Both the position numbers and the translations under genes were made by a program. Source: Spirochaetales bacterium (lineage in GTDB: Bacteria; Spirochaetota; Spirochaetia; UBA9216). From it: a DNA stretch of 64,000 nt. The stretch spans positions 248,001-312,000 of the forward strand of contig JAEKNX010000004.1 of NCBI GenBank assembly GCA_016839055.1, in the 5' to 3' direction. Positions 31,043-34,877 of the stretch are shown one piece after another. The notes under the pieces are model-generated. The model had not been told where the DNA came from, did not search any database, and saw only the letters and a list, made by a program, of their open reading frames with translations. The stretch's first letter is position 1; each line of letters begins with the position of its first letter.

Positions 31043-32065
31043 TTGAAGGTCAGGATTGAGGATGTGGCTAGTGAAGCCGGAGTTTCGATAGCTACGGTTT
31101 CCAGGGTCTTGAATGATCATCCGGTAAGTGAAAAAGCCCGAAGAAATGTTGAAGATGCTATCGCAAAACTTGATTACAGTCCAAATCTGACAGCCCGGGG
31201 TCTGATTAAGGGGAAATCTTCCAGAGTCGGTGCAATCGTTTATAATCTTGAAAATCCGTATAATTCGGCAATCCTGAGTGCTATTGAACGCCGATTGAGG
31301 CAGGATGGATATCTATGTAATTTTGCGAGTTCCACCCTCAGGGAAAAGGAGGAATCCGATACATTGAAGCGTTTACTTGATTCAGGTGTCGAGGGCCTTA
31401 TTATTGTCGACGTCGATCTGAAGAGTGAAAACTCAGGAATGTATGCAGCAATTAACAAACATATGCCGGTTGTACAGATTAACGGTAACCCAGACAGGAC
31501 TGATACTAACTGTATTATGGTTGATCAGAAATTCGGCATGAGCTCGGTTATGGATTATTTTTTCGAATTGAATCATCGGGATATTCTTTTCATCAGAGGA
31601 GAATTGCCCTCCTTATCTTCCAATCAAAAAGAGAAGGTTTTCAGGGCAAGAATGAATGAGCAGGATTATGATCTTGATGAATACAGCATTCTTAAGGTAG
31701 GTTTGTCCAATCTTATGGACGGGATTGATGAAACCCGGCAAAAATTCTGTGAAGTTTGGAAGAAGGGTAGAAAACCCACTGCAGTATTTTCCTGCAACGA
31801 GATTATGGCAATCGGCGTTGTTCAGGCAAGCTGGGAGCTGGAATTGAAGATTCCTGAAGATTTTTCTCTTATATCGCATGACAATACTTTTTTATCACAG
31901 CTGTCCAATCCTCCTATTACAACAGTTGACATGACTCCGGCAAGACTCGGTTATGAATCCGCTGAAATGATGATACAGCTGTTAAAGCATGATGATCCCA
32001 TCCCGCGGAAACTGATATTTTATCCTGAACTGATAAAACGCGCTTCCTGTAGGTCGCTTGAATAA
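31043..32065 (+). CDS. LacI-family transcriptional regulator
   Basis: 340 residues: N-terminal helix-turn-helix VRIEDVASEAGVSIATVSRVLND, hinge helix with SPNLTARGL, then a periplasmic-binding-protein-like effector domain. It begins with TTG at 31043 after GGGAG at 31031-31035. As the last gene of the alpha-galactoside operon it probably represses from AAACGTTT at 26515-26522 and is released by a galactoside or derived sugar. Confidence 0.92.
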   Translation: MKVRIEDVASEAGVSIATVSRVLNDHPVSEKARRNVEDAIAKLDYSPNLTARGLIKGKSSRVGAIVYNLENPYNSAILSAIERRLRQDGYLCNFASSTLREKEESDTLKRLLDSGVEGLIIVDVDLKSENSGMYAAINKHMPVVQINGNPDRTDTNCIMVDQKFGMSSVMDYFFELNHRDILFIRGELPSLSSNQKEKVFRARMNEQDYDLDEYSILKVGLSNLMDGIDETRQKFCEVWKKGRKPTAVFSCNEIMAIGVVQASWELELKIPEDFSLISHDNTFLSQLSNPPITTVDMTPARLGYESAEMMIQLLKHDDPIPRKLIFYPELIKRASCRSLE

Positions 32066-32157
32066 TTTCTATTGTCAGCGGATCTGCGGCTGAATAGGAT
32101 AATAACCGGATTCTCACTAATCTTGACAATATTCATCATTTACAGTTAACATCAAAA

Positions 32158-32163
32158 TATAAT
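32158..32163 (+). promoter_or_regulatory. Candidate -10 element for tupABC
   Basis: Perfect TATAAT 24 nt before the riboswitch core. The closest -35-like hexamer is TTCATC (32132-32137, 20-nt spacer). A perfect TTGACA at 32123-32128 is 29 nt away and cannot pair with it, though it could pair with TTAACA at 32146-32151 (17 nt). Confidence 0.4.
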
Positions 32164-32181
32164 GCCGAATAGAAACAGCTA

Positions 32182-32277
32182 AACTTCATTCTCCAGGGGA
32201 GGGGGCAGGCTGTCTCTATCGATGGGTGTAACCGGAAACAGTTGCGCCTCCCGTGTTTGGAAAGGCTGAAAGTTAAA
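32182..32277 (+). ncRNA. Probable Moco/Tuco-type riboswitch upstream of tupA
   Basis: A conserved-looking leader with a pairing AACTT (32182-32186) / AAGTT, a GGGAGG (32197-32202) / CCTCCC (32247-32252) stem, and an 8-bp stem GGTGTAAC (32225-32232) / GTTGCGCC (32241-32248) capped by a GAAA tetraloop, followed by the block GGAAAGGCTGAAAGT. These blocks resemble the molybdenum/tungsten cofactor RNA motif known in front of Moco biosynthesis and Mo/W transport genes. The position before a tungstate importer supports this. I identified it by eye, not by covariance search. Confidence 0.65.
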
Positions 32278-32311
32278 TCTAAATAAGCTTTCGTGCCTTC
32301 AAATTTTTTTT
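32262..32311 (+). terminator. Terminator hairpin in the tupA leader
   Basis: AAGGC (32262-32266) and GAAAG (32268-32272) pair with CTTTC (32288-32292) and GCCTT (32295-32299), followed by eight T (32304-32311) directly before the GGAGG of tupA. The 5' arm overlaps the last conserved block of the riboswitch, so the two structures exclude each other. Confidence 0.7.
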
Positions 32312-32321
32312 GGAGGAAAAA

Positions 32322-33176
32322 ATGAAAAACAGGATTAAAGCTTCACTTCTTGTTCTGCTGCTGCTGCTGCTCGCTGTCGCAGGATTCGCCGGAGGGGTTC
32401 AGGAGGCGGCGGACAGCACTCCCGCGGCCCCTGAGAACCCGAGAGTGAAACTCGCGACCACTACAAGTACCGAAAATACAGGGCTGCTTGATGTGCTCCT
32501 TCCTGCCTTTGAGGAAAGAACAGGATACAAGGTTGACGTAATTGCCGTCGGCACTGGAAAGGCCATTGCTCATGGAGAAGCCGGAGATGTAGATATCATC
32601 ATGGTTCATGCAAGAAGCCGCGAAGACGCCTTTGTAGAGAAAGGTTTTGGCGTAAATCGACGGGACATGATGCATAATGACTTTGTAGTCCTTGGTCCTG
32701 ATTCCGACCCTGCAGGAATTGCTGGAACAAATGATGCCGCCGCCGCATTCACAAAAATTGCCAAAGCTGGTTCTGATTTTGTTTCCAGAGGTGATGATTC
32801 TGGTACCCACACCAAGGAAAAGGCTATCTGGAAGGTTTCCGGAGCCGAAAAGACAGGTAAGTGGTATAAGGAAGCAGGGCAGGGCATGGGCACTGTTATC
32901 ACTATGACTGATGATATGCAGGGATATACCCTGACAGACCGTGGAACTTATCTTGCAATGAAAGACAACATCGGATTAAAGGTTGTGGTAGAGGGCGATC
33001 CTGTGCTTTTCAATCCTTACGGTGTTATAGCTGTTAATCCAGAGCTCCACCCTCATGTAAACTTCGACGGAGCTATGGCCCTTATTGAGTTTGTGACGGG
33101 CGCCGAAGGTCAGGGAATTATTAGGGATTTTACCAAAAACGGAGAGCCGTTGTTTTATCCGGATGTAATTAAATAA
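32322..33176 (+). CDS. tupA: Tungstate ABC transporter substrate-binding protein TupA
   Basis: 284-residue secreted anion receptor. TTTSTENTGLLDVLLPAFEE, IAVGTGKAIAHGEAGDVD and SRGDDSGTHTKE are signatures of TupA, which binds tungstate with very high affinity. The signal peptide ends GFAGGVQEAA, again without a lipobox cysteine. ATG 32322 is chosen because GGAGG (32312-32316) precedes it; an in-frame TTG at 32310 lies inside the terminator T-run. Supplies tungsten for the aldehyde oxidoreductase at 21931. Confidence 0.92.
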   Translation: MKNRIKASLLVLLLLLLAVAGFAGGVQEAADSTPAAPENPRVKLATTTSTENTGLLDVLLPAFEERTGYKVDVIAVGTGKAIAHGEAGDVDIIMVHARSREDAFVEKGFGVNRRDMMHNDFVVLGPDSDPAGIAGTNDAAAAFTKIAKAGSDFVSRGDDSGTHTKEKAIWKVSGAEKTGKWYKEAGQGMGTVITMTDDMQGYTLTDRGTYLAMKDNIGLKVVVEGDPVLFNPYGVIAVNPELHPHVNFDGAMALIEFVTGAEGQGIIRDFTKNGEPLFYPDVIK

Positions 33177-33199: not shown

Positions 33200-33883
33200 A
33201 TGGATAGTGTATTCGGCTATGCTCTAAAGCTGCTGCTTACCTTCGACAAGGAAACCTACTTTATTGCGGGACTCTCTCTCCGTTTTGCATTAACTTCAAC
33301 CATATTTTCAGCGCTGTTAAGCCTGCCCGTTGGTGTCCTTCTCGGACTTAACCGCTTTCGGGGCAGGCGATTCTGCATTACTGTTTTAAATACGCTCATG
33401 GCCCTCCCGACAGTTGTTGTCGGACTGTTTATTTACGCACTTGTTTCGAGGTCAGGACCTCTGGGATATCTGGGACTTCTTTTTAACCCATCAGCTGTTA
33501 TTATAGGGCAGTCTATTCTGTCGTTTCCAATAATAGCCTCAATGGTGAACACTAGTGTCGAGCGTCTTGACGGGAATCTTCGTGAGACGCTGGTCACTCT
33601 TGGCGCTTCAAAATTTCGGATCTACCTCACAATTCTGAGCGAGGCTCGTTTTTCTATCATGACAGCCCTTCTCGCCGGATTCGGAAGGGTAATTGGCGAG
33701 GTCGGTGTTTCGATGATGCTCGGAGGAAATATCCGATGGTGGACCCGGACCATTACAACTACGATAAGTCTTGAGACGAGCAAGGGGCAGTTTGGACTTG
33801 CTCTTGCTCTGGGAATCATTCTGCTTATTATCGCCTTTACAGTCAACTTTATAACTCACTGGACGGTAAAACATGAGAGATAA
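33200..33883 (+). CDS. tupB: Tungstate ABC transporter permease TupB
   Basis: 227-residue permease with about five spans and the coupling loop LRETLVTLGASKFRIYLTIL. The GRVIGEVGVSMMLGGNIRWWTRT block is typical of TupB. It overlaps tupC by 11 nt. Unlike the other importers here there is no hairpin between the binding-protein and permease genes. Confidence 0.92.
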   Translation: MDSVFGYALKLLLTFDKETYFIAGLSLRFALTSTIFSALLSLPVGVLLGLNRFRGRRFCITVLNTLMALPTVVVGLFIYALVSRSGPLGYLGLLFNPSAVIIGQSILSFPIIASMVNTSVERLDGNLRETLVTLGASKFRIYLTILSEARFSIMTALLAGFGRVIGEVGVSMMLGGNIRWWTRTITTTISLETSKGQFGLALALGIILLIIAFTVNFITHWTVKHER

Positions 33884-34877
33884 CGGAAGACGCTTCGGAG
33901 TATCGATCCGAAACCTTAAGTTCAGTTATGAGCTGCCTGCCGGTAAAAATAAAAGGGGGGTGAGTTCCTACGTTCTGGATCTCGAGGAGCTCGATATTCA
34001 TTCCGGCGGGTGTCATGTTATTCTTGGCCCGAACGGCTGCGGCAAGACTACACTTCTGAAGTTGATTGCCGGGCTGATTACGCCTACCGAGGGGCATCTG
34101 GAAATGAACGCAAAGGCTGTTCTCGTTCATCAGCGGCCTTACCTGCTGTCAGGGACTGTCTACCACAACGTTTCTTATGGTCTCAGGATAAGAAAAACTG
34201 CGAAGCATGAGATAGAACAGAGGGTGCTCTCCGAGCTTGAAAACTGGGGGCTCCTCCATCTTAAAGACAGGTCCACTGCAAAACTATCCGGCGGAGAGAA
34301 GCAGAGGACTGCAATAGCCCGAGCTATGGTAATCCGCCCGGATATTCTGCTGCTGGATGAGCCCACCGCAAGCGTCGATCCCGACAACATCAGCCAGATG
34401 GAAGAGCTGATAAACCGGATTCTAACAGGCGGTACTACAGTCATCCTCAGTACCCACCATCTCGATTTTGCCTACAGAATGGCCGATAGTATTTTCAGGC
34501 TGAGGCGCGGCAGGCCGGTGCAGGCGCATGAGAATATTCTAACCGGCCAAGTTACAGGGCGTGAGGAGTTTTTTAATATTTTTGAGACAGAGGGAACAAA
34601 GCTCTTCTGCCCCGGTAGGGATGGGCACTTTCGCAGAGCGGTCTTTTCCGAGAATGATGTAATTTTGTCAAAAGAGCTAGTAAAGTCCAGTGCAAGAAAT
34701 GTGCTCGCGGCTTCTGTTGAAGAGCTTATACCCGACGGCTCAGAAGTAATTGTCAGGCTGCGGGCAGGATTTTCGTTTAAGGTCAGGATATCGGGCGCAT
34801 CGGCCAGGGAGCTCGATATTCGCCCCGGCTGTAGGCTATATGCAATGCTGAAATCGTCTTCGATTGGTCTTTATTAA
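33873..34877 (+). CDS. tupC: Tungstate ABC transporter ATPase TupC with C-terminal Mop-like domain
   Basis: 334 residues. ATPase part: Walker A GPNGCGKTT, signature LSGGEKQRTAIARAM, Walker B ILLLDEPTASVD. The last ~65 residues (SSARNVLAASVEELIPDGSE onward, IRPGCRLYAMLKSSSIGL) look like a Mop/TOBE oxyanion-binding domain, which in ModC-type ATPases lets intracellular anion inhibit the pump. Last gene of tupABC. Confidence 0.9.
   Translation: MRDNGRRFGVSIRNLKFSYELPAGKNKRGVSSYVLDLEELDIHSGGCHVILGPNGCGKTTLLKLIAGLITPTEGHLEMNAKAVLVHQRPYLLSGTVYHNVSYGLRIRKTAKHEIEQRVLSELENWGLLHLKDRSTAKLSGGEKQRTAIARAMVIRPDILLLDEPTASVDPDNISQMEELINRILTGGTTVILSTHHLDFAYRMADSIFRLRRGRPVQAHENILTGQVTGREEFFNIFETEGTKLFCPGRDGHFRRAVFSENDVILSKELVKSSARNVLAASVEELIPDGSEVIVRLRAGFSFKVRISGASARELDIRPGCRLYAMLKSSSIGLY

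Follow-up and report, generated by a model that had tools for sequence, protein, structure and literature searches.

The window, by which we mean the whole 64,000-nt stretch of Spirochaetales DNA analysed here, carries the genes tupABC with a Moco RNA aptamer directly 5' of them (Table 1). Of the NCBI curated transporter profiles, those of TupA and TupB give the best matches for the binding protein and the permease, and the ATPase matches WtpC best; since TupA and TupB score below the curated cut-offs, tungstate is the presumed substrate of this importer. Translation of tupA starts at the ATG of 32322-32324. The candidate promoter further upstream is a weak one, because shuffles of the region yield 0.8 such sites.

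Table 1. Features of the tupABC locus and its leader (positions in the window)
Feature	Position	Strand	Basis
Candidate sigma-70-type promoter, TTGACA-N18-TAACAT	32123..32152	+	Consensus scan, 10/12 matches
Moco/Tuco RNA aptamer, P3 absent	32151..32283	+	Rfam RF01055
P1 5' strand (GCC)	32164..32166	+	Rfam alignment
P2 stem with internal loops	32169..32219	+	Rfam alignment and fold
P4 stem, GAAA cap at 32235-32238	32224..32249	+	Rfam alignment
P5 (CC/GG)	32250..32260	+	Rfam alignment
Anti-sequestor hairpin, 32262-32274 with 32285-32299 (terminator stem of the first-pass annotation)	32262..32299	+	Folds, covariation
P1 3' strand (GGC), doubles as part of the anti-sequestor	32264..32266	+	Rfam alignment; shared use from sequence and folds
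Sequestor hairpin, 32296-32303 with 32309-32316, covers the tupA Shine-Dalgarno	32296..32316	+	Folds, covariation
T8 run	32304..32311	+	Full run not conserved in relay-type relatives
Shine-Dalgarno GGAGG of tupA	32312..32316	+	Sequence
tupA, tungstate-binding protein	32322..33176	+	NF041772, E 5.6e-68, 229 bits (curated cut-off 400, not reached)
tupB, permease	33200..33883	+	NF041773, E 1e-62, below its cut-off; general NF038017 cut-off exceeded
tupC, ATP-binding protein, WtpC/ModC-like	33873..34877	+	NF040840, E 2.2e-52, below its cut-off

RF01055, the Rfam model of Moco RNA, has a hit in the leader at 64.3 bits, its gathering score being 36 (E 3.7e-13 for the whole window). The first-pass annotation had recognised a Moco/Tuco-type aptamer here and proposed a covariance-model search, the lack of a hit to count against it; the high-scoring match bears the call out, and the blocks it quoted, a GAAA-capped stem (P4) and the last conserved block GGAAAGGCTGAAAGT (32259-32273), can both be read in the sequence. 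The aptamer does begin earlier than the 32182 that had been given, as the 5' strand of P1 lies upstream of that position. All 15 model columns of P3 are deleted in the Rfam alignment of the window copy, which makes it the P3-less form tied to the tungsten cofactor by Regulski et al. 2008 (PMC2408646), and its fold has two hairpins between P1 and the core. With a score above gathering and a place in the leader of Mo/W transport genes, the RNA before tupABC adds a true new member to the Moco/Tuco riboswitch class, and it is of the Tuco type in that P3 is absent and the host has tungsten genes (tupABC and aldehyde:ferredoxin oxidoreductase). We infer that the ligand is the tungsten or molybdenum cofactor, and that its binding stabilises P1. 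The genome holds seven copies of RF01055, one of which precedes an operon of ferredoxin and aldehyde:ferredoxin oxidoreductase (Pfam AFOR_N/AFOR_C), and another a molybdopterin hydroxylase, so that enzymes of both metals appear to be present. A search of genome contigs with the single TupA protein gave one locus only.

Between the aptamer and tupA, two hairpins draw on the same nucleotides. In the anti-sequestor, AAGGCTGAAAGTT pairs with AAGCTTTCGTGCCTT, thereby reusing AAGGC and GAAAG from the end of the aptamer; its 3' strand is followed by CAAA, the T8 run and GGAGG, and a UUUGG:CAAA extension carries the stem up to the T-run, giving a hairpin of -14.3 to -14.8 kcal/mol. The sequestor appears when 32158-32330 is folded with GGC held in P1, whereupon CCTTCAAA pairs with TTTGGAGG, Shine-Dalgarno included. 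Since CCUU is common to both hairpins and the formation of one excludes the other, the sign of the switch depends on which of them is the working element. So which one is it? The first-pass annotation took the former, together with T8, for a terminator that aptamer folding would prevent, so that cofactor would turn the importer on, and it warned that a further switching element might reverse this logic. Taken by itself, the hairpin with T8 could well be a terminator that competes with P1 and P5, and the predicted sign was a reasonable one from a single sequence.

To find loci for comparison, TupA was searched for at the level of the order, the phylum and the class and in further regions, and the loci were scanned with Rfam or by motif. 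Among the Spirochaetota, 33 distinct tupA leaders match RF01055 at the gathering score, in two layouts. The direct type (19 of the 33) has GGAAAGGAG or GGAAAGGGG after the core, mostly 5-13 nt before a start codon, so that the strand of P1 itself, mostly GGAAAGGAG or GGGG, serves tupA or a short leader ORF as ribosome site; an exception is L067, with a long leader. In the Moco RNA of E. coli moaA the ribosome site likewise lies inside P1, and that RNA was shown to be an OFF switch (PMC2408646), which is why the 19 direct leaders are predicted to be OFF as well. The remaining 14 leaders, the relay type, have GGAAAGGC or GGAAAGGU, a displaced ribosome site and a CCUUCAA strand 5' of it, and have in common the motif GGAAAGG[C/T]...[G/A]CCUU[C/U]AA...UUGGAG. 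They span five family-level groups and are all RF01055 matches (L006, which is the window; L019, L027, of the same genus; L036, L065, L066, L071, L085; L082; L088, L089, L091; L093, L094), L019 being identical over the compared stretch to the tupA leader L064 of Spirochaetales isolate SZUA-414. On the TupA tree the relay layout is clustered, if not one clade on the best tree (six changes), and it may still have a single origin; L076 is direct, yet belongs to the same genus as two relay leaders. Most direct-type aptamers carry P3 by fold; 12 of the 14 relay-type aptamers have no room for it. We found no description of the relay layout in the open-licence literature, taken without the supplementary alignments of the 2008 paper.

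For the 14 relay leaders, blocks of equal length (P1 5' strand, aptamer end, hairpin 3' strand and ribosome site) were aligned; in two subgroups the upper stem was brought into register by eye, and in one of these a bulged base was dropped. In the anti-sequestor (AAGGC:GCCUU), 92.9% of cells are paired, compared to 85.2% in column shuffles and 44-59% when the strands are slid, with two-sided changes in 6 of 11 pairs and a covariation score (0.385, against 0.231 in shuffles) that none of 500 shuffles reaches. For the sequestor (CCUUCAA:UUGGAG), 89.3% of cells are paired, 3 of 10 pairs show two-sided changes, and the score of 0.182, against 0.073 in shuffles, is again reached by 0 of 500. CCUUYAA and UUGGAG were among the criteria by which the set had been chosen, so columns 41-47 and 56-61 are to be discounted in these figures; the flanking pairs, including the A-U to U-A swaps of the sequestor, lie outside the selection motif. 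There are thus two mutually exclusive helices, both with covariation, one of which lies over the Shine-Dalgarno. P1 retains its core of G-C, C-G and C-G in all 14 leaders, one G-U excepted, and shows no covariation within the set; because it hardly varies, its covariation is uninformative as proof of the relay.

The bound state was mimicked by masking the aptamer strand in partition functions. Upon masking, accessibility of the Shine-Dalgarno falls to 0.00-0.04 in 14 of 14 relay leaders, and from 0.90 to 0.00 in the window copy. In the controls, on average 17% of the spacer shuffles fall to 0.04 or below, and so do 2 of the 21 further ribosome sites of the window that were compared. Without masking, some of the leaders are open, but equilibrium accessibility is 0.07 or less in L088, L093 and L019. 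For leaders whose free state is not open, the model that follows assumes a folding order during transcription.

Taken together, we consider it probable that this P3-less, Tuco-type Moco RNA is a translational OFF switch of tupABC, acting through a relayed mask of the Shine-Dalgarno. What the sequences show directly is that the RNA matches the aptamer model, that it lies before tupABC, and that both exclusive hairpins are conserved and covary. Without cofactor, the aptamer end (AAGGC and UGAAAG) would pair with CUUUCG-U-GCCUU, holding CCUU away and leaving GGAGG open, so that the importer would be made. With cofactor, P1 would hold GGC and the lower half of the anti-sequestor hairpin could not form; the freed CCUUCAAA would then pair with UUUGGAGG and cover the ribosome site. 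The logic is most likely that of simple feedback on tungstate import, with repression when cofactor is plentiful. For control to lie at translation, transcription would have to pass T8 with sufficient frequency, as it presumably does.

That the hairpin with T8 acts instead as an intrinsic terminator, blocked by aptamer folding so that cofactor turns the importer on, now seems unlikely to us, well as the window copy would suit it. T8 stands directly 5' of the ribosome site, the UUUGG:CAAA extension brings the stem to it, and in a separate scan the extended hairpin ranks 22nd by hairpin energy among 557 T-tracts in the window; alone among the relay leaders, this copy has a perfect T8 after a hairpin of -14 kcal/mol and would pass as a terminator. 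However, its relay relatives keep the stem without the full T-run: in the 8 nt after the stem the window copy has eight T, the 12 other relay leaders listed have 3-7, with seven in L089 and L091, and L094 reads CAAAACGACTCGTTTTGG there. A terminator as conserved element was rejected on this ground, the stem being kept in 14 relay leaders and the full T-run in the window copy only. (A terminator scan of 31900-32400 gave none, as its loops were restricted to 3-8 nt, and is not counted as evidence.) Furthermore, folding predicts that in all 14 bound states the released CCUUCAAA covers the Shine-Dalgarno, so that blocking a terminator would still not give translation, and the layout of tupA leaders elsewhere in the phylum is that of an OFF switch. 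Of the earlier reading, the stem with T8, its reuse of AAGGC and GAAAG and its competition with the last conserved block stand, while a termination role is not supported, the full T-run being kept in no relay relative; nor is the predicted activation by cofactor supported, as OFF is indicated both by the 14 relay leaders that keep a covarying sequestor over the Shine-Dalgarno and by the 19 others, mostly with the ribosome site in P1. Termination with activation by cofactor is thus disfavoured, only the sign of the switch would change, and the warning of an element that may reverse the logic was apt, given the sequestor sharing CCUU.

Could both elements act in this species? T8 would then trim transcripts when the aptamer is empty and the mask would repress when it is full, resulting in expression that is low at both ends, or in a leaky brake. 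Both elements are indeed there in the window copy, and L089 and L091 have a partial T-rich tract, but we found no precedent, the two halves would need mutual tuning, and T8 has the look of a U-rich sequestor strand lengthened in this one copy; we therefore hold this to be more doubtful still. A slightly fainter chance yet is that in this species the conserved mask has gained, through T8, a functional terminator, such that tupABC is expressed only at a middle range of cofactor, which, if true, would mean that an empty aptamer is terminated and a full one untranslated. Finally, that the aptamer is a relic or ligand-independent, its leader hairpins only setting a basal level, is hardly credible: P1 of the window copy is short (3 bp), yet the core is conserved at 64.3 bits, both hairpins covary, and seven RF01055 copies stand in the genome, including those before the oxidoreductase operon and the hydroxylase.

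The OFF switch proposed here shares with the Moco RNA of Regulski et al. 2008 its core, P1-P2-P4-P5, the GAAA-capped P4, the P3-less form and the position before a metal-oxyanion importer, and other Moco RNAs have terminators (PMC2408646). It differs from E. coli moaA in that the ribosome site is not inside P1 but about 50 nt downstream, masked by the released CCUUCAAA. The 19 direct-type tupA Moco RNAs of the Spirochaetota have the same aptamer family and target gene and are predicted to be OFF as well, whereas they use the 3' strand of P1 (GGAAAGGAG) as the ribosome site. Translational riboswitches of other classes also employ a sequestor and an anti-sequestor, two exclusive hairpins of which one masks the Shine-Dalgarno; the hairpin logic is the same, and aptamer and ligand differ. 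As such, the predicted sign is corrected from an apparent ON switch for an importer to ordinary feedback repression, and the spirochaete tupA leaders present one aptamer in two layouts, with the ribosome site either in P1 or displaced and relay-masked, both of which predict OFF. The relay layout could serve as a reporter format, and in the window's genus there are three natural variants, differing in whether they have the T-run, as material for asking whether that run terminates.

L111, in front of an aldehyde-dehydrogenase-like gene, and L121, in front of a moeA-like one, are relay-like leaders as well; masking changes accessibility little in L111 (0.12 to 0.10) and lowers it clearly in L121 (0.83 to 0.20). 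The contig of L111 (G440:C146, minus strand) also carries tupA, and a T6 run lies inside its 11-bp ribosome-site mask. In L037, L045, L049, L056, L070, L073 and others, a third hairpin is found at the P3 position before tungstate-type transporter genes. P3 in direct-type leaders of such transporters sits badly with a strict equation of P3-less with tungsten, unless these transporters carry molybdate. Short reading frames begin right 3' of the aptamer in the tupA leaders L073, L078, L084, L038 and L041, and that of L078 ends overlapping the tupA start (TTATGA), which suggests coupled translation.

Among the other copies in the genome of the window, three were masked in the same way, with no difference in L001 and L002 and a decrease from 0.44 to 0.23 in L003. 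L001 (G000:C15:236335-236478) is a Moco RNA with an apparent P3 and a long leader before a binding-protein gene, the product of which resembles, by eye, metal/siderophore (FecB-type) binding proteins. Behind L002, the locus L009:4202-7573 encodes a 316-aa protein without a Pfam match and a TonB-dependent receptor with plug domain, possibly to take up a metal compound through the outer membrane. In three genomes of the window's genus (L004, G000:C33:522622-522738; L016; L023), a P3-less Moco RNA lies approximately 190 nt 5' of a purB-like gene, with a G+C-rich hairpin and its T-run on the 3' side; this Moco RNA is possibly a short stand-alone transcript. In the same three copies, a later sequence, ATAGTTTCCACCATAATCC, is complementary to GGATTATGGCAGAAACTAT just 3' of the aptamer.
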